Origin: Phycisphaerales bacterium
GTDB taxonomy: Bacteria; Planctomycetota; Phycisphaerae; Sedimentisphaerales; Anaerobacaceae
DNA length: 63,696 bases
Direction of reading: 5' to 3'
Assembly (NCBI GenBank): GCA_003141275.1
Contig: PLLM01000016.1
Coordinates: forward strand, 1-63,696
The position numbers were made by a program, and so were the translations under genes. Positions 38,685 through 61,157 of this stretch are shown one piece after another. How positions within the stretch are numbered: the stretch's first letter is position 1; each line of letters begins with the position of its first letter. The notes beneath the pieces were generated by a model that was not told where the DNA came from, did no database searches, and was given only the letters and a program-made list of their open reading frames with translations.

Positions 38685-39551
38685 ATGAATGAGAATAATT
38701 TAGCCCGCAATCCGAAGTCGTTTGAGGAACTCAAACAAACAAATCAGTTCGGCACTGAATACTGGAGCGCAAGGGATTTGCAGCCATTGCTGGGCTATAA
38801 CCATTGGCGGAGTTTCGATAACGCCGTTACAAAGGCGATTATCTCTTGTGAAAAGTCAGGCAATGAGTCGGGGCATCACTTTGCGCGCGCGCGCAAACCG
38901 ATAACCGGAGGCAAAGGAGCTGTTCAGGACGTGGATGATTATCATCTTTCACGTTTTGCCTGTTACTTAATTGCCCAAAACGGCGACCCGCGTAAGCCGG
39001 AGATTGCCAATGCCCAGAAGTATTTCGCGATACAGACGCGCAGGCAGGAAGTTTCCGACATTTTGACAGCCGATATGGAACGGCTTGAGATAAGAAAGCA
39101 GGCGTCGGAGGATTTTCGGGCGTTATCAGGGGCCGCCCGCGATGCAGGGGTTCAAAATAAGATGTTCGGTGTCTTTCACGATGCGGGTTACAAGGGACTC
39201 TATGGCGGCAGAGGTGTTGATGATATCAAGAAACGCAAGGGTATCGACAAACAGGAAAACCTGATGGACCGAATGAATGCCACGGAATTAGCTGCCAATC
39301 AGTTCCGAATGACCCAGGCACGCGAGAAACTGCAAGAACAGAACGTCAAAGGCCAGGAGCAGGCCATTGCGACCCACAACAAAGTTGGCAAAGAAGTGAG
39401 GGACGCGATTAAACGTATCGGCGGCACGTTGCCGGAAAATATCCTTCCTGCCGAGCATATTAAGGTTGTCCAAAAACGAATCAAAGGCGTTAAATCCCGC
39501 CTGCAATTGGATGAAAAAAACGCCAAAGGCCTCATCGGCGGGACAAAATAA
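38685..39551 (+). CDS. DinD-like DNA-damage-inducible protein
   Basis: A 288-residue protein matching the DinD family: FEELKQTNQFGTEYWSARDL at the start, LLGYNHWRSFDNAVTKA, and the downstream block FHDAGYKGLYGGRGVDDI. DinD of E. coli is SOS-induced and antagonises RecA filaments; the family also shares the N-terminal BRO-type domain with phage proteins. It is the first of three plus-strand accessory genes inserted between malQ and the oppositely oriented phosphorylase. No clear LexA box was recognised upstream. Confidence 0.88.
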   Translation: MNENNLARNPKSFEELKQTNQFGTEYWSARDLQPLLGYNHWRSFDNAVTKAIISCEKSGNESGHHFARARKPITGGKGAVQDVDDYHLSRFACYLIAQNGDPRKPEIANAQKYFAIQTRRQEVSDILTADMERLEIRKQASEDFRALSGAARDAGVQNKMFGVFHDAGYKGLYGGRGVDDIKKRKGIDKQENLMDRMNATELAANQFRMTQAREKLQEQNVKGQEQAIATHNKVGKEVRDAIKRIGGTLPENILPAEHIKVVQKRIKGVKSRLQLDEKNAKGLIGGTK

Positions 39552-40037: not shown

Positions 40038-40128
40038 TCTTTCAGATAATAATGAGTATCCTCTATTTTATCGGTAGCAGCTTTTACATACTGCATATTC
40101 GACTTGTTGGGCGATTACATTGGGAAAT

Positions 40129-40794
40129 ATGAGCAAGACTTGGAAACAATACCAAGAAGAAGCAGCGTCCTTTTTTCGTTCTTTAGGATTTGAAGCCCAA
40201 GTTGATCAGACACTTGTGGGCGTAAGGGGTCAGCATAATATCGATGTTTGGGTGACCGGTGAAATACAGGGGATATCATTCAAATGGATAGTTGAATGTA
40301 AATTCTGGAAGAATAATATCCCTAAGGAAAAGGTTTTGGCTTTAATCTCAATCGTTCAGGATATAGGAGCCGACCGTGGTTTTTTATTGTCAGAAGTAGG
40401 ATTTCAATCAGGAGCGATCCGTAATTCACTTGGTACAAATATTAGTCTTACCAGCATTGCAGATCTAAAGGAAGAAACAAAAACAAAAGTGGGTGATTTT
40501 TTAGCATCAAAGCTTCATTGGAGAATTATACATATAAAAAAACAGTTGTTTCGATTACATAAGCAAACAGATGATTATTTTTCGAAATATCTTGAGGCGA
40601 TAGGTAAGGTTACTTTTCTTGATATGGCAATTGAAGATGCCATCAAAGGAAATTTCCCAATTGTTTACGGAATAACACAGGATAGAAGACTTACAGCAAT
40701 TGATTGGGAAGACTTAAATAAAAAAGCATCAGAAATTCTGGATGAATCTGAAGCACTTGCTGGAGACAATCCAATTAATAACATAGGGGAATAA
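40129..40794 (+). CDS. Mrr-like restriction endonuclease domain protein
   Basis: About 221 residues. The N-terminal half fits a PD-(D/E)XK fold of the Mrr_cat type: YQEEAASFFRSLGFEAQVDQ, Asp in QHNIDVWVTG, E-x-K in WIVECKFWK, and a following AADRGFLLSEVGFQ-like block. The C-terminal helical part is unassigned. The start is ATG 40129; an in-frame TTG lies 9 bases upstream. With no methylase nearby it resembles Mrr-type modification-dependent or anti-plasmid nucleases. Third gene of the accessory trio, A/T-rich. Confidence 0.75.
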   Translation: MSKTWKQYQEEAASFFRSLGFEAQVDQTLVGVRGQHNIDVWVTGEIQGISFKWIVECKFWKNNIPKEKVLALISIVQDIGADRGFLLSEVGFQSGAIRNSLGTNISLTSIADLKEETKTKVGDFLASKLHWRIIHIKKQLFRLHKQTDDYFSKYLEAIGKVTFLDMAIEDAIKGNFPIVYGITQDRRLTAIDWEDLNKKASEILDESEALAGDNPINNIGE

Positions 40795-51064: not shown

Positions 51065-51272
51065 ATTGCCAACCGTGCGCACGAATAGCAGCGTTCTATG
51101 GATTACCATATCCCATAGCGCAGTTTGAGATTGTGTGCAGTTTTGAAAGTGAGAATGAAAGAAAACGGTGTTTTGCTGATTGACCAGCCGCCGAAGCCGA
51201 AGCCATAGCGAGAGCGAAGGCAAGGCGGCGATAGAAGTTTCAAAAAAAAGCGAAAATAATTTGTTTTTGTGT

Positions 51273-51301
51273 TTGACATTTCCGAATACAATAAGTATTA
51301 T
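51273..51301 (+). promoter_or_regulatory. Near-consensus promoter of the RHH-integrase operon
   Basis: TTGACA (51273-51278), 17 bases, TATTAT (51296-51301): 6/6 and 5/6 to the sigma-70 consensus at ideal spacing, the best promoter seen in the window. The ATG of the RHH gene begins at 51309, only 7 bases after the -10 box, so the transcript would start at or next to the start codon and be leaderless. Confidence 0.7.
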
Positions 51302-51308
51302 TGCTCGT

Positions 51309-51485
51309 ATGAAGGGAAAAAAGAAAAAAATGGGCAGACCTACACTGAGGCCGAAAAACAGGCGCACCGCCCTAATAACCTTGCGGCTGACAAGCACAGA
51401 CAGGGCATTGCTTTTGAAAGAAGCAAAAGCCAAAGGATTGAGTATTTCAAATTATCTTTTTTATTGTTGGAAAAAAGGCAGGTGA
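51309..51485 (+). CDS. Small ribbon-helix-helix-like protein
   Basis: 58 residues, very basic N-terminus (MKGKKKKMGRPTLRPKNRR) followed by TALITLRLTSTDRALLLKEAKAKGLSISNYL, the strand-helix-helix pattern of RHH (MobC/CopG-like) DNA-binding proteins. The start at ATG 51309 fits the promoter, which makes the message leaderless. Integrase follows 5 bases after its stop. It probably autoregulates the operon. Confidence 0.7.
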   Translation: MKGKKKKMGRPTLRPKNRRTALITLRLTSTDRALLLKEAKAKGLSISNYLFYCWKKGR

Positions 51486-51490
51486 AATTT

Positions 51491-52831
51491 ATGGCCAGTA
51501 TCGTAAAACAATCGACGACTGATGGGACGCGATATTTAATCCAGCTTAGTCCGGGGGAAAATGAGGCAAGGCCGAAAATCAGCTTGGGTAGAGTAACTAA
51601 AAACCAAGCCGAAACTGCAAAGGTTAACATCGAAAGTGTAATCAGGTGCAAGGATGCAGGGGCTATAATGCCCCCTGCTGTGCAAGAATGGCTCAAAGGT
51701 ATATCAGACGGCCTCAGGAAGCGTTTAACGGCCCTTGGTATTATCGAGCCGACAAAAGACGGCCCAAACATCACGGTTGCCGATTTAGTAAGCCGGTATA
51801 TTGTGAGCCGCCCAGACGTGAAGGCAATCACAAAGGGTAAATGGCAGAACGCCTATAATAAGCTATCTGCGTTTTTCCGAAATCAGAATATCGAGGATGT
51901 TACCGTTCAACAGGCAAAGGATTTTCGGATTTATTTGAAAACTGTTGGCCAGCTATCGGAAAATACTGTGCGGAGATTGATAGGTTTATCGAGGCAGTTT
52001 TTTAAGGCGGCGATTGACGCGGGCTTACTGAGCAAGAATCCTTTTGCCGGTCAAGCAATATCCGTTAGGGCAAACCCCGAAAGATTTTATTATGTCAATC
52101 AGGAAATGGCCTTAAAGGTCTTAGACACCTGCCCAGATAGCGAATGGCGGCTGATATTCGGATTATCACGCTGGGGCGGTTTACGCTGCCCAAGTGAGGT
52201 ATTGGGATTGAAATGGCAAGACGTGGACTTTGAACATAGCCGTTTTACCGTTCACGCCTGCAAAACAGAACATCACGCCGACAGCGGCATTAGAATAGTC
52301 CCGATGTTTCCTGAATTAAAGCCATTGTTTCAGGACGCCTTTGATAATGCCAACGAAGGGGATATTTACTGCATAACGCGGTATAGGAAAGCCACAACGA
52401 ATTTTAGAACAACGATGACAAAAATAATTAAGCGGGCCGGATATAAACCTTGGCCTAAACTGTTTCAAAATCTTCGCAGCACACGCGAAACAGAATTATT
52501 CAAAATGACCGGCGGTAACGTCAAAGCGGTTTGTAACTGGATAGGCAATAGTCCCGAAATTGCAATGCAACATTATGCACAAGTCACCGAAGCGGATATT
52601 CAGGAAGCGGCTAAATCGTCCCTGATAAACGATGCTGAAAAAAGGGTGCAAAAAACGGTGCATAATACGGTGCAGACAGCCGATGCAACGAATCGCAACG
52701 AGCCGCAAGAGATTATCGCAAGTCCTTGTGATTGCAATGATAAGCGAGAATTTGCAACACTGTGCGAAAGTAAAAATTACCCCCAAGGGGAGTCGAACCC
52801 CTGTCTCCAGGATGAGAACCTGATATCCTAG
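51491..52831 (+). CDS. int: Tyrosine recombinase (integrase) with tRNA-derived C-terminus
   Basis: 446 residues in the integrated state. I start at ATG 51491 (MASIVKQSTTDGTRY, CAGGTG upstream). Residues about 1-80 form an arm-type N-terminus, about 90-185 the SAM-like core-binding domain, about 195-370 the catalytic domain with Arg232 (GGLRCPSE), Lys in HACKTEH, Gln326-Arg329 (QNLR; Gln in place of the usual His), Trp in CNWIGNSPE and nucleophile Tyr362 (MQHYAQV). The last 11 codons, after the att core, are antisense to tRNA-Glu and give a foreign tail. The native 72-residue tail lies at 44972-45185. The catalytic part is complete, so both forms may work. Confidence 0.94.
   Translation: MASIVKQSTTDGTRYLIQLSPGENEARPKISLGRVTKNQAETAKVNIESVIRCKDAGAIMPPAVQEWLKGISDGLRKRLTALGIIEPTKDGPNITVADLVSRYIVSRPDVKAITKGKWQNAYNKLSAFFRNQNIEDVTVQQAKDFRIYLKTVGQLSENTVRRLIGLSRQFFKAAIDAGLLSKNPFAGQAISVRANPERFYYVNQEMALKVLDTCPDSEWRLIFGLSRWGGLRCPSEVLGLKWQDVDFEHSRFTVHACKTEHHADSGIRIVPMFPELKPLFQDAFDNANEGDIYCITRYRKATTNFRTTMTKIIKRAGYKPWPKLFQNLRSTRETELFKMTGGNVKAVCNWIGNSPEIAMQHYAQVTEADIQEAAKSSLINDAEKRVQKTVHNTVQTADATNRNEPQEIIASPCDCNDKREFATLCESKNYPQGESNPCLQDENLIS
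52766..52797 (+). repeat. att site, right end of the tRNA-Glu element
   Basis: Partner of 44940-44971; exact core 52778-52797. It lies inside both the integrase frame (plus strand) and the tRNA-Glu 3' end (minus strand). Confidence 0.92.
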
Positions 52832-52850
52832 GCCACTGGACGATGGGGGC
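52778..52850 (-). tRNA. tRNA-Glu (anticodon CTC)
   Basis: 73 bases, minus strand. Acceptor GCCCCCA pairs with TGGGGGT (one G-T pair), discriminator A. The anticodon loop TTCTCAT gives CTC. T arm AGGGG-TTCGACT-CCCCT is intact, and CCA is not encoded. It hosts the integrative element, which restores its 3' end, so the gene stays functional. Confidence 0.93.
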
Positions 52851-52932
52851 AGAAACAAATCAAAAATTAAAACGCAAAAATCAAATATCTGCCGGGAAAG
52901 AGTATAGCAAAACTCACTACGAGGTCAACCAT

Positions 52933-53725: not shown

Positions 53726-54721
53726 GTGAAATACAAACCGGCGGACAAACGATACGAGAAAATGAAATACAATCGCTGCGGACGCAGCGGCTTATTACTG
53801 CCCGCGGTCTCACTGGGCCTGTGGCACAACTTCGGCGACGTTGACGATTTCGAGACGGGCCGGGCAATCGTCCGCCGGGCGTTCGACCTCGGCGTAACCC
53901 ATTTCGACCTCGCCAACAACTATGGCCCCCCGCCCGGCTCAGCAGAGAAAAACTTCGGCAAAATCTTCAAACAGGATTTGAAGCTCTACCGCGACGAGCT
54001 GATTATCTCCACCAAAGCCGGCTACCTGATGTGGCCCGGCCCTTACGGCGAATGGGGCACAAGAAAATACCTCCTCGCGAGTTTGGACCAGTCCCTCAAA
54101 CGCCTCGGCCTCGATTACGTTGACATCTTCTATTCGCACCGCTTCGACCCCAATACCCCTCTCGATGAAACCTTGTCCGCCCTCGAATCGGCTGTCAAAC
54201 AGGGCAAGGCCATTTACGCCGGCATCTCGAATTACAAGCCGGAGCAAACTACGGAGGCGGCAAAAATCCTGCGTAATCTTGGCACGCCCTGCCTGATTCA
54301 TCAGCCGCGCTATTCGATGTTCGACCGCTGGGTTGAAGATGGTCTTCTCGATGTATTGGGCAAAGAGGGCATCGGCTGCATCTGCTTCTCGCCTTTGGCG
54401 CAGGGGCTCCTTACCGACAAGTACCTCAAGGGTATTCCCAAAGACAGCCGCGCCGCAAAGTCGTGGGGCTTCCTCAAACGCGAGCAGATTACCGAAGCCG
54501 TCGAGAAAAAAGTCGCCGCCCTCAACGAGCTTGCGAAAAAACGAGGCCAGTCGCTTGCCCAGATGGCCCTTGCCTGGGTCCTGCGTGATAAACGCGTAAC
54601 TACCGTCCTCATCGGCGCAAGCAAGGTTAAGCAGCTCGAGCAAAACGTCGCCGCACTCGATAATCTCCACTTCGCCGATGATGAGCTTAACCAAATCGAA
54701 AAGATTCTAAAAGGCGCATAA
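53726..54721 (+). CDS. Aldo/keto reductase (YghZ/Kv-beta-like)
   Basis: 331 residues from GTG 53726, chosen because AAGGAG sits 8 bases upstream; an in-frame TTG at 53663 has no such site. The NADPH-dependent reductase barrel has LGLWHNFGD, the catalytic tetrad Asp-Tyr (FDLANNYGPP), Lys (ISTKAGY) and His (FYSHRFD), and the cofactor-site end (VLIGASKVKQLEQN). Closest in pattern to L-glyceraldehyde-3-phosphate reductase YghZ, which detoxifies aldehydes. Its last 410 bases are overlapped antisense by the HNH-AP2 gene. Confidence 0.93.
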   Translation: MKYKPADKRYEKMKYNRCGRSGLLLPAVSLGLWHNFGDVDDFETGRAIVRRAFDLGVTHFDLANNYGPPPGSAEKNFGKIFKQDLKLYRDELIISTKAGYLMWPGPYGEWGTRKYLLASLDQSLKRLGLDYVDIFYSHRFDPNTPLDETLSALESAVKQGKAIYAGISNYKPEQTTEAAKILRNLGTPCLIHQPRYSMFDRWVEDGLLDVLGKEGIGCICFSPLAQGLLTDKYLKGIPKDSRAAKSWGFLKREQITEAVEKKVAALNELAKKRGQSLAQMALAWVLRDKRVTTVLIGASKVKQLEQNVAALDNLHFADDELNQIEKILKGA

Positions 54722-55308
54722 GCAGATTCATCGACTGGCGGAAAGTTCAGGCGGGCAAACTCGCCAAAATACTTTTGGGCCGCTTCGTCATAAGCCCGTG
54801 CCGCTGTAATCTCGTTGTCAAATCTGCCCAACCAAATTTTTTTCCCATTACACTTAATTTCACTTGCCCACCTGCCCTGCGACTTACGAAAGGATACGCC
54901 GAGAAATCGCGACGTTGTATTTTTTTGTTTTCTCCTGTTGCGAATATTCTGTGTTCGCGTCGCAAAACACAGGTTGCTCTTTCGATTATCGAGGGAATTA
55001 CAATTCTTATGGTCAACTACCCTTTCGTCAGTCGCATTCATTATCTCCCTGTGCATAGAGACAAACGTTGTCTTTTTCGGACTGACCAATTTGTATCGGA
55101 CCGCGTATAAGTTATTTCCACCCTTGCCGCCTGCGTACGCAACCCATTTGTAATGCCGCAGGCAGTAATAATCGTCCGGGTCTAAAATCGTCCATTGACC
55201 TTCGCCCAAGTAAATTCTGCGGTAGGTGTAGCCGTACTTCAACAGCCGATAAACCATCACCGGCCACACCAAAAAAATATCCACCCAATCCGTCAATCTA
55301 ACTTTCAT
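54310..55308 (-). CDS. HNH-AP2 (homing-endonuclease-like) protein running antisense into the reductase gene
   Basis: 332 codons, but only the first 195 or so look like protein: an N-terminal region (ILDPDDYYCLRHYKWVA), an HNH motif (SMHREIM, VVDHKNCNSLDNRKSNL) and an AP2 DNA-binding domain (SRFLGVSFRKSQGRW ... ARAYDEAAQKYFGEFARLNFP). After LNFP the frame simply continues as antisense of the reductase to the stop at 54310. HNH-AP2 proteins are free-standing homing endonucleases of phages and bacteria. The original 3' end was probably lost when it landed beside the reductase; the extra 137 residues may destabilise it. Confidence 0.8.
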   Translation of the reverse strand: MKVRLTDWVDIFLVWPVMVYRLLKYGYTYRRIYLGEGQWTILDPDDYYCLRHYKWVAYAGGKGGNNLYAVRYKLVSPKKTTFVSMHREIMNATDERVVDHKNCNSLDNRKSNLCFATRTQNIRNRRKQKNTTSRFLGVSFRKSQGRWASEIKCNGKKIWLGRFDNEITAARAYDEAAQKYFGEFARLNFPPVDESAYAPFRIFSIWLSSSSAKWRLSSAATFCSSCLTLLAPMRTVVTRLSRRTQARAIWASDWPRFFASSLRAATFFSTASVICSRLRKPHDFAARLSLGIPLRYLSVRSPCAKGEKQMQPMPSLPNTSRRPSSTQRSNIE

Positions 55309-55485: not shown

Positions 55486-55856
55486 TTGCTGCCTTACCTT
55501 GAAGGCACGATGTCCCGTGCGGTTCTCCGCTACTACAGAGGAACATGGTCCCCCCGCCGTTTTGCTAAGCAAAACGAGACGCGGGGGCTAACGCGCCTCT
55601 ATATATAAGGTGAAATTACGGGCATTTTAAGCACTTACAAAACATTTTGTTTTATTCAAAAATCCGTAAGTCCTTATGTCGTAAGGAATAAAAAAATAGT
55701 TAGAGAATCGCCAGATTTTTTTGGCAATATAGGTAATTTAAGAATAAGACCTCAGACCACAGACAAAAGGCAGAAGTTTAGAAATAAGAATGGAGAATGG
55801 CGAAAGCGCGGGGCAGGGAAAAACGGCAGATGGCCCCCATTATTACTTTGTAATTT
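55486..55856. other. Non-coding region between repeat and the AT-rich cassette
   Basis: About 370 bases. It has one short hairpin (GTTTTGCTAAGCAAAAC, near 55558-55575) framed by CCCCCGCC/GCGGGGG. No gene is supported. Confidence 0.45.
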
Positions 55857-56207
55857 TTATTTACTAGTAACCCAAACGTATACTTCTTCGTCATCGTCAT
55901 ATCTATGATGTTTACCCTCGAATTGTCGCATTGCCGCATCATACTGTGACATTACGAAAACTGCGTCGCTAGTTGAAGGTAGTGTTTCATTATCTAACAG
56001 TTCTAAAAATTGTACTGATGGATCATCTGATAGTATCACTTTTATTTTTACAAGTACCTTGTTAATCATCTCAACCTTAAGTTTATTTAGAGGATTATCC
56101 GATTTCTTTTTAGATAATTCTTTAGTTTCAGCCAAAAGCGACTTAAGGATCGGCCAGAGCATTTCAAATTCTGCAACTTGTGCTTTTGTTGGTGCCTTAT
56201 TAGTCAT
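55857..56207 (-). CDS. Small protein, paralogue of the next gene
   Basis: 116 residues. Shares with the protein encoded just upstream the pattern ELSKKKxDxxLNxxKLxxIN...LLDNETLPSTSDAVFVMSQY. Predicted helical with no membrane segment. AAGG precedes ATG 56207, 4 bases after the upstream stop. Last gene of a three-gene A/T-rich operon. Function unknown. Confidence 0.65.
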   Translation of the reverse strand: MTNKAPTKAQVAEFEMLWPILKSLLAETKELSKKKSDNPLNKLKVEMINKVLVKIKVILSDDPSVQFLELLDNETLPSTSDAVFVMSQYDAAMRQFEGKHHRYDDDEEVYVWVTSK

Positions 56208-56210
56208 TGC

Positions 56211-56597
56211 TTACCTTTCTTGAATTTTTTTAGGGGGCGCAGTCCTAATACCAGTTACCACTCCTTTAATAGACCAGTTCCATTGTCCGTGACCAATCTC
56301 GATATTATCTGATCGTAGTTTTTCCATGCAATTAAGATATTGTGCTAATATCATTACAACATCACTGTTCGTGGGGATGCTTTCCAAATCAAAAACTTCA
56401 AAATCGGGGAACGGCTTGTATTCTGCCCCAAGAAGTTCATTGGCTTTTTCAAGTATGCCATTGACAAGTTTTAATTTAAAAACATTGATTCCGTCATCAG
56501 GTTTTTTCTTTGATAGCAACTCGATCTCTTCATGTAATCCCTTTAACTGGGCTTCAAGTTTCTCAAACTTATTAATATCGTTCCTATTTTCTATCAT
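56211..56597 (-). CDS. Small protein, paralogue of the 55857 gene
   Basis: 128 residues, LLSKKKPDDGINVFKLKLVNGIL and FDLESIPTNSDVVMILAQY align with the neighbour. The extra C-terminus is basic. GAGGAG precedes ATG 56597. Tandem duplication with clear divergence suggests a heteromeric pair or different specificities. Not a recognised toxin-antitoxin pair. Confidence 0.65.
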   Translation of the reverse strand: MIENRNDINKFEKLEAQLKGLHEEIELLSKKKPDDGINVFKLKLVNGILEKANELLGAEYKPFPDFEVFDLESIPTNSDVVMILAQYLNCMEKLRSDNIEIGHGQWNWSIKGVVTGIRTAPPKKIQER

Positions 56598-56627
56598 TAG
56601 AACAACTCCTCATAAACACCTTTTACG

Positions 56628-57998
56628 CTATATTGGGCACTTTCGAGTAAATTCAATATATTTTGCATTAAGCACCTCTATGGGCGATCTCTGTTTACTT
56701 TCATAAACACTTACCATAAGTTTTATATCTGCATCGGTCAAAGTAATAATGCACCGTCTCTGACCTGACCAAAGATCGATAGTATTTTTGAACATTGCGG
56801 TTGAAAGTGGATTGCGCGTTACAATTATGCCAAATTTCCCAAAGTCATTTGCCAAATATCTATTTAACTGGGTTATGTGTTCTCTTTCTATTGACAGTAC
56901 ATTCTTAAGCTCAAAGACCAGTTGCTTATTACCATAGACCTCATGGATATCCTGAAGAAACTTTTCAGAACGGGTATTGTAAAAAATTAAATCCCTAATT
57001 TGTACACCTGAATCTGTTCTGACTTGTTCTGCTGCAAAATCCAAATGAGGGTAGAGTAAAGAAGCAAGTAATTGACAAACGTAATCCTCGTACTTCTTAT
57101 CTGCATTATCAGTCTTGCCAGTCGGCAGTTTTTCTATTGTCGAAATTTTACGTTTCGCAGAGAATATTGGAATCGGTCTAAATAACGGATCGTTACGACA
57201 ATCATTCTGTGTTCTCTCTTTTAGTTTTATATAAACGCTAACTACGTCATAATTTTGTCTGTTAAAATTGAGTATTTCAATTCTGGTTAAACTTTTTTCT
57301 TCTTTTAGAACGTCCTTAATATAATACTCATTTATATAATCTTCACAGTTAATCCAAGGTGCCCCTCTCAACCATCGTTTTGGTACTAGCAGTACAGGCC
57401 TTTTATCTTGTGGATTAAATGGCAATTTTACTTTTTCCGTTTTGAAGACGTTATCCTTTGTATCATAAACATTCTCCAAAGTAACATCTTCCATGGGGAT
57501 TCCAAGTTTTTGGCATTGATCCATTGTGTAATCAATAAGCCAGGATTTGAGATAATTGCATGCGATATCACTGATTCTGTCTTTTGAAATTTGGTCTATA
57601 TAAAGTTGTATCTCTTCAAAGTGAGTGAAACCACTTTTTTGAATTTGTGGGATTAATCTGAAAAGCGAAAGAATCTCAGAGGTAACCTTAGGGCCTATTT
57701 TATGTCCTTGGCGAGTTCCGGAGAAACCTAAACCTACCTCATCACACTCTGAGGATTTAATTAGGATTTCTGTTGCGGTTGCTTCATCACCTTTATTGAC
57801 CAAAAATCCTAAATAGTTGAAAGAATTGGCCAGCATAGCGTGTAGGCTTATGTCCTGCATTGATGGGGAGCGCCAAAGCAAGAAAGGATCAAGGCAAAAT
57901 GGGATATCTTCGTCTAGGAATGGTATTGCGAAATCTGTATTCTCTTGACAAACAGGTATATCAAAACAGTCTATTAATCTAGGCCTAATAAGAGCCAT
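56628..57998 (-). CDS. Large protein with C-terminal PD-(D/E)XK-like nuclease domain
   Basis: 456 residues, first gene of the cassette. The N-terminal 300 residues are unassigned (FAIPFLDEDIPFCLDPFLLW; EVGLGFSGTRQGHKIGPKV). The C-terminal 150 residues fit a restriction-endonuclease-like core: a helix (YEDYVCQLLASLLYPHLDF), Asp in IRDLIFYN, then E-x-K in LVFELKNV 25 residues later, and a following helix HITQLNRYL. Composition is A/T-rich against its surroundings. A nuclease with two small partners suggests a defence-type module, but no known system was identified. Confidence 0.6.
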   Translation of the reverse strand: MALIRPRLIDCFDIPVCQENTDFAIPFLDEDIPFCLDPFLLWRSPSMQDISLHAMLANSFNYLGFLVNKGDEATATEILIKSSECDEVGLGFSGTRQGHKIGPKVTSEILSLFRLIPQIQKSGFTHFEEIQLYIDQISKDRISDIACNYLKSWLIDYTMDQCQKLGIPMEDVTLENVYDTKDNVFKTEKVKLPFNPQDKRPVLLVPKRWLRGAPWINCEDYINEYYIKDVLKEEKSLTRIEILNFNRQNYDVVSVYIKLKERTQNDCRNDPLFRPIPIFSAKRKISTIEKLPTGKTDNADKKYEDYVCQLLASLLYPHLDFAAEQVRTDSGVQIRDLIFYNTRSEKFLQDIHEVYGNKQLVFELKNVLSIEREHITQLNRYLANDFGKFGIIVTRNPLSTAMFKNTIDLWSGQRRCIITLTDADIKLMVSVYESKQRSPIEVLNAKYIEFTRKCPI

Positions 57999-60092: not shown

Positions 60093-60797
60093 TAGCTGAA
60101 GTGGCTTATGGCATTTTAAGACGCAGGGCGGCGTGATTGTCACTTCCGGCATACGAAGGTTTAGCGTTGACCCTGAGATTTGCCGCAGGCCCTGTCGTCT
60201 TGGCCGTTACGGTCATGATAACGCTGTTGTTTTATTTCTCCACAGGTGGCTTGCTTTCGGCTGATATCCTTCTATTAAATCCGCGAAAGCAGACAATCTT
60301 CTATCCCGTCTCCGGCGGTATCCAAATTATGATATACTACACGTAGCGAAGCACATGGCCCGCTTCGGCAATACAAACGACTAAACCTGCCTTTGACATT
60401 GAGTATCGAGCATCCAATATCGAGTATCTAAATCAATCTTTTTTCTTTCATTGTTTTTTCCCGCGTGTTATTGACAGCGTTCAGCGTACAGCGTATAGCG
60501 GACAGTGTGTTTTCCTCGGCTTAGTAATGAAGGCCAAAGGCCTTCGCGGACAAGGCGAAAGGGTATCGCAGATGCTTGAATCGAGAATACCTTTAGCCGC
60601 AGAACGCAAGCCGAGCAAAAGCAGTGTTAATCCGTGTAACCTGTCCTGAGCAGTAGTCGAAGGAATCCGTGTCTAAAAAAGTTCTCTGTGTCTTCTGTGT
60701 TCTCTTGCCGGAAGGCATCCCTTAGGGAGTGGTAAAAAAACAGTGCAATCTGTGAAATCAGTGGCTAAAATGGAATTCGCCAATTAAGGACTAAAGA
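60093..60797. other. Long repeat-rich intergenic region
   Basis: About 700 bases of mosaic repeats: module B (60436-60469), ATCCGTGTAACCTGTCCTGA and CAGTAGTCGAAGGAATCCGT units, and a TTGCCGGAAGGCATCCCTTAGGGAGTGG unit (60707-60734) repeated at 61306-61333. An open frame at 60137-60346 lacks a start and looks non-coding. Confidence 0.55.
60436..60469 (+). repeat. Dispersed intergenic module B, copy 3
   Basis: ATCTTTTTTCTTTCATTG continuing to CCCGCGTGTT. Confidence 0.7.
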
Positions 60798-61157
60798 ATG
60801 TACGAGCATCATTCCCAACCGCTGCTGCCGCTAAGAAAATTCGTTTATCGCCTTTTGCTGCATATTCTGGTTGCCCTGGCCGCTATTGTGTGCGCTTTGG
60901 GAATAGGGATTCTCGGCTACCATTGCCTCGAAGGTCTCCCATGGCTCGACTCTTTTCTCAATGCCTCAATGATTCTCGGAGGCATGGGGCCTGTCAACGA
61001 GCTGCATTGGCCGGCGGCCAAACTGTTCGCGGGTTTCTATGCGCTTTTTTCGGGACTTATATTTATCGGCGTAGCCGGCGTCATTATGTTTCCCATCGCG
61101 CACCGTTTTCTCCATGTCCTCCATCTGGACGATGACAAGAAGCAGCATTCAGCGTAG
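60798..61157 (+). CDS. Small membrane protein, ion-channel-like region
   Basis: 119 residues with two helices (about 16-40, LLLHILVALAAIVCALGIGILGYH; about 76-100, LFAGFYALFSGLIFIGVAGVIMFPI) around SMILGGMGPVNELHWP. The order helix - GGMGP loop - helix resembles a pore-like two-helix (Ion_trans_2) arrangement, but the selectivity motif is not clearly present. Ends in a His/Asp/Lys-rich tail. Confidence 0.75.
   Translation: MYEHHSQPLLPLRKFVYRLLLHILVALAAIVCALGIGILGYHCLEGLPWLDSFLNASMILGGMGPVNELHWPAAKLFAGFYALFSGLIFIGVAGVIMFPIAHRFLHVLHLDDDKKQHSA

Follow-up and report, generated by a model that had tools for sequence, protein, structure and literature searches.

We consider it likely that the three compact genes at positions 55857-57998 of the window (the whole stretch of 63,696 nucleotides of Phycisphaerales DNA that was analysed) were acquired horizontally and belong to PDC-M36, a candidate anti-phage system in which a predicted nuclease would be held in check or directed by two small paralogous partners. 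The first-pass annotation had seen here an AT-rich set of three genes, foreign in origin and matching no known system. The gene set itself is as described: three open reading frames on the minus strand whose G+C content is 36.0%. The window as a whole averages 47.1%, and the value for the set lies about 4.3 standard deviations below all equal-size windows elsewhere in the 63,696 nucleotides. The supposed lack of a known counterpart did not survive the profile search, since the set matches the catalogued PDC-M36 over its full length.

The operon and its family

The features of the operon are the following:

55857-57998, minus strand: operon A-B1-B2, three compact open reading frames
56628..57998, minus strand: gene A, 456 aa, PDC-M36A (PDLC04597, E 3.4e-231, residues 1-455)
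Domains of A, predicted: N-terminal family domain at residues ~1-260; C-terminal PD-(D/E)XK-type nuclease domain at residues ~277-456
56631..57170, minus strand: predicted nuclease domain of A, residues ~277-456, from the AlphaFold model and fold comparison
56211..56597, minus strand: gene B1, 128 aa, PDC-M36B (PDLC04599, E 3e-54)
55857..56207, minus strand: gene B2, 116 aa, PDC-M36B (PDLC04600, E 2e-40)

In the search of PADLOC-DB 2.0.0 profiles, A is matched end to end (residues 1-455 of 456 against profile positions 1-456 of 457), and B1 and B2, directly downstream of it, both match PDC-M36B over their full length. Because of these matches, the set has to be regarded as already catalogued as a candidate, and the novelty of the finding is accordingly low. 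The window operon has the same two families in the same gene order as the PADLOC system and no feature that would distinguish it; the catalogue does not split B1 and B2 as functional classes, though its two B models track them. All other PADLOC families gave zero matches for the three proteins even at E 10, and no NCBIfam model was matched by any of them. Pfam returned nothing above cut-off for the three proteins, with PDDEXK_3 at the C-terminus of A (E 0.025) falling below it.

The gaps between the genes measure 30 bases (A-B1) and 3 bases (B1-B2), so the close spacing noticed earlier stands, while the values given for it (31 and 4) do not. B1 and B2 had been taken for two diverged paralogues, and, judged by sequence, true diverged paralogues is what they are: they share 27% identity, find each other reciprocally at E ~1e-11 and belong to the same PDC-M36B family. 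Compared with the nearest relative, dN is 0.21-0.32 and dS is either saturated (A, B1) or ~2.3, which indicates that the genes are under purifying selection. Since, in addition, homologues at 53-64% identity keep the gene order across phyla, the operon is more than a chance arrangement of reading frames.

The predicted nuclease and its partners

In our opinion there is good support for inferring that the C-terminal domain of A has a PD-(D/E)XK-type nuclease fold, as judged from the alignment and the model together. The alignment of 25 sequences (A and its 24 homologues) contains an invariant D336-x26-E363-x-K365 motif. This is the arrangement that had been noticed in the sequence alone, although with a spacing of 26 and not 25 residues. 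Q377 and Y381 are likewise invariant in the 24 homologues and form a QxxxY after the E-x-K. The AlphaFold model, built on the 25 sequences, is good for the C-terminal domain and modest for the protein as a whole (pLDDT 74.6, pTM 0.46); the prediction is poor for residues 322-335, which directly precede D336. In fold comparison residues 262-456 match the BspD6I nickase with Z 11.4 over 178 residues at rmsd 3.6. Further matches include the BspD6I small subunit (Z 11.4), FokI (10.7), LlaBIII (8.4) and the Shedu nuclease (7.8). For residues 277-456 of the model, the alignments to BspD6I and FokI have rmsd 3.2-3.6 over 148-178 residues. Thus the catalytic residues of the PD-(D/E)XK superfamily are conserved and the alpha-beta core is present in the model. 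A structure without such a core would have spoken against the putative nuclease, and the prediction for the 456-residue protein gave the opposite result. Searches of solved structures by sequence, single or profile, found nothing credible for A or B.

In Blautia proteins (L026, L027, 7017-8591) the same nuclease domain is joined to an SF2 helicase, and it is therefore a movable module. The N-terminal domain of A is also seen in a larger family of proteins of 480-500 aa for which no B genes could be recognised; some of these proteins are encoded next to AAA ATPases or type I restriction genes. In G108 (L051, 1874-9969) a distant relative of A is placed between HsdS of a type I restriction-modification locus and an AAA_15 ATPase gene, directly after the former.

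With BspD6I (a nickase and heterodimeric restriction enzyme) and FokI, A shares the predicted cleavage fold and the layout of an N-terminal recognition part followed by a C-terminal cleavage part. This raises the possibility of a restriction-like enzyme, in which the N-terminal domain would recognise either a sequence or, much as in type IV systems, a modification of phage DNA, the C-terminal domain would cut, and B1 and B2 would be structural. Indeed the best structural matches, which include MspJI and EcoT38I besides BspD6I and FokI, are enzymes of this recognition-then-cleavage type, and the absence of a methyltransferase from the conserved unit, which sets it apart from Type II restriction-modification, fits modification-dependent cutting. 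However, the fold search, which hardly covered residues 1-260 of A, identified no recognition fold there, and a wide host range without a methylase would need a modified target that is itself hypothetical. The operon further differs from BspD6I and FokI in having no detectable sequence relation to them and no methylase, and in that B1 and B2 are helical proteins and not nuclease subunits. We regard the restriction-like reading as rather doubtful. Shedu is a single-gene system. SduA and A are both of the PD-(D/E)XK type, but the window operon has three genes and its sequence matches to PADLOC are confined to PDC-M36.

The model of B1, which is of high confidence (mean pLDDT 95.8, pTM 0.88), shows a bundle of three helices together with a small beta hairpin or sheet. 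Its conserved positions include N46, S78-D79 and W106; those of B2 include E27, K34, N49, S80-D81 and Q88, in the alignment numbering of the first B2 sequence. No relatives of the B proteins were found by sequence, or by fold above the noise expected of helical bundles. A kinship of B1 with the mycobacterial proteasome activator Bpa, its best fold match (Z 7.6 over 94 residues), was rejected as lying within that noise, and a library of viral structures contained no match to the B1 fold.

Exact seed patterns, run against 84,980 species genomes, gave 24 full-length homologues of A, at the identity given above, in Bacteroidota, Bacillota, Pseudomonadota, Chloroflexota, Spirochaetota and Fibrobacterota. 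The order A-B1-B2 is kept at 22 of the 24 loci. B2 is present at all 24 and B1 at 22, and A is never found without at least one B gene. At two loci (L008, L010) A is followed directly by B2 with B1 missing, and two others (L014, L022) carry an additional B-type gene. The conserved unit comprises A, B1 and B2 only. Such an obligate linkage is also what one would expect of a toxin-antitoxin style abortive system, in which A would be a DNA-damaging toxin and B1 and B2 its antitoxins, so that infection would upset the balance and the cell would die. The B proteins are indeed small, acidic (pI ~5.4) and helical, and the operon moves on plasmids and prophages. On the other hand, two separately conserved B families with motifs of their own are more than one antitoxin would need, and A, which has 456 aa and a further domain at its N-terminus, exceeds the usual size of classical type II toxins. 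Type II antitoxin genes usually precede their toxin genes, while here A comes before B. We think that this scheme is unlikely to be the right one.

Spread of the operon and its neighbours

The foreign origin suggested earlier agrees with the low G+C content, with the tree of A and with the distribution of the operon among related genomes. Phyla are mixed in the tree: Chloroflexota, for instance, group with Pseudoxanthomonas, and Spirochaetota group with Paludibacter. The closest sequence to the window copy belongs to a genome of the same family (G051, 71% identity). The PDC-M36A profile scores in 12 of 148 related genomes, with full-length matches only in the window genome and G051, and it has no match in three genomes of the same genus. 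In the nearest relative (L037, 2990-8519) A stops about 9 residues early, and some 2.6 kb beyond the operon, on its downstream side, there is a gene for a serine recombinase. The slot was compared in G003, a genome of the same genus; the G001 locus falls on contig ends. In G003 the window flanks 55596-55737 and 60786-61130 are kept, and between them lie 1.8 kb as against 5.0 kb in the window. A DUF4145 gene replaces the operon in this syntenic slot (L044, 9457-10113, minus strand), which is located between an aldo/keto reductase gene and a murC-like gene. The slot is thus variable, and the operon is either an acquisition or an element that is patchily kept.

Further copies of the operon were found on cyanobacterial and alphaproteobacterial plasmids. 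Predicted viral contigs also carry the triplet, with a terminase nearby in two (L057, L062), an integrase nearby in a third (L058) and a type II restriction pair adjoining it in a fourth (L061). INPHARED phage genomes contained no match to A or B2, and a search of E. coli genomes with the Proteus copy as query gave none either.

It had been proposed that the triplet should be looked for in defence neighbourhoods, and at a number of homologous loci this is where it is found: when larger neighbours were chosen and identified individually, defence-type genes were present at 9 of the 15 loci examined, as a raw count uncorrected for background. In Duncaniella muris (L022) a complete type I restriction-modification M-S-R set lies directly upstream of the operon. 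Other defence neighbours are a type I methylase (L008), DarG (L019), a ThsB-like TIR protein (L005), DRT2 (L004), PDC-S05 (L015), PDC-S06 (L016), PDC-M43B (L020) and an HEC-06/Orf5-like gene (L021). A truncated remnant of A follows a PaeR7I restriction-modification pair on a plasmid. The homologues showed no consistent housekeeping setting, which would have spoken against the earlier reading. L022, and the distant relative of A after HsdS, resemble type I restriction loci in which extra genes are embedded, but most PDC-M36 copies have no type I system directly beside them. It should be kept in mind that PDC-M36 is itself a candidate found by gene context, and that the context evidence here is therefore not independent.

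On two unrelated plasmids, of Leptolyngbya and Methylobacterium (L054, 7163-8846; L055, 7928-8959), genes of the UmuD/UmuC type lie directly upstream of the operon. One could argue from this that the operon serves DNA repair or the maintenance of mobile elements and not defence. However, no UmuC or UmuD homologue occurs near the 24 genome loci, which have defence genes instead, and the distribution is patchy. We consider such a role very improbable, and have rejected a partnership with UmuDC.

At the window locus defence association is not evident in the same way, as the sole adjacent defence-like gene is the following:

54310-55308, minus strand: AP2-HNH gene (AP2 E 1.3e-11; HNH_3 E 2e-5, just under cut-off)

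This is the homing-endonuclease-like neighbour that the first-pass annotation had pointed out. The gene is present, but its association with the operon is probably incidental, because about 25 copies are dispersed in the genome and the gene does not belong to the conserved operon elsewhere. The family has 27 matches in the 3.05 Mb window genome (G000), corresponding to ~25 separate genes of ~200 aa each; the window gene reaches 332 aa because its frame continues into the aldo/keto reductase gene, entering the 3' end of that gene in antisense. Upstream of it lies an element of ~145 bases (55596-55741), also present at six more genomic places, in each case with another AP2-HNH gene 170-520 bases away. 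Copies of the element are L064-L069, L044, L045 and L048. It carries a conserved inverted repeat (ACTTAC..GTAAGT) and CACCTTATATATAGAGG. Since it shows hardly any covariation and matches nothing in Rfam, it has the look of a promoter or recognition element that is shared; the Rfam scan of the window returned tRNAs only.

Elsewhere in the window, a lone gene for a restriction-type nuclease with an Mrr_cat domain (40120-40794, plus strand, E 3e-12) lies in a patch of 35% G+C, near a Bro-N domain gene (38685-39551). At 51269-52851 there is a tyrosine integrase gene, its 3' end overlapping a tRNA-Glu gene (52777-52851) on the opposite strand. This overlap resembles elements that integrate at tRNA genes, and variable small genes lie upstream.

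Possible function of PDC-M36

We infer, with good support, that the role of PDC-M36 is anti-phage defence. In the mechanism that we propose, A would be the effector, whose C-terminal domain would cut DNA. Its N-terminal domain, B1 and B2 would form a complex with the nuclease, either keeping A off or aiming it, and a phage signal would lead to the release of A. The B proteins would thus be obligate partner subunits that sense for the nuclease or license it. The partnership of A and B is supported by their obligate linkage, and the DNA-cutting step by fold and conservation. As the conserved unit has no methyltransferase, the task of sparing host DNA would fall to the B subunits or to the N-terminal domain, and not to self-methylation. 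It is tempting to go further and to imagine a methylation-free nuclease defence that tells self from non-self by means of two paralogous helical sensors, with B2 as the obligate core and B1 and the duplicated B genes as sensors for other phage triggers, but such an extension is speculative and, in our opinion, improbable as it stands.

According to a recent paper, the PDC candidates stem from a 'guilt-by-embedding' screen (Payne et al.). When PDC-M63AB and PDC-S04, likewise PADLOC candidates, were tested in one host, neither had defence activity (PMC12409345). No published activity test of PDC-M36 was found in the literature searched, so that its remaining interest is that of a well-bounded candidate apparently without experimental study in that literature. 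Its minimal unit is now defined as A plus B2, its B family is split into two conserved types, and both the invariant residues of its nuclease and its occurrence on plasmids and prophages over at least seven phyla are mapped. For these reasons we regard PDC-M36 as ready to be tested.
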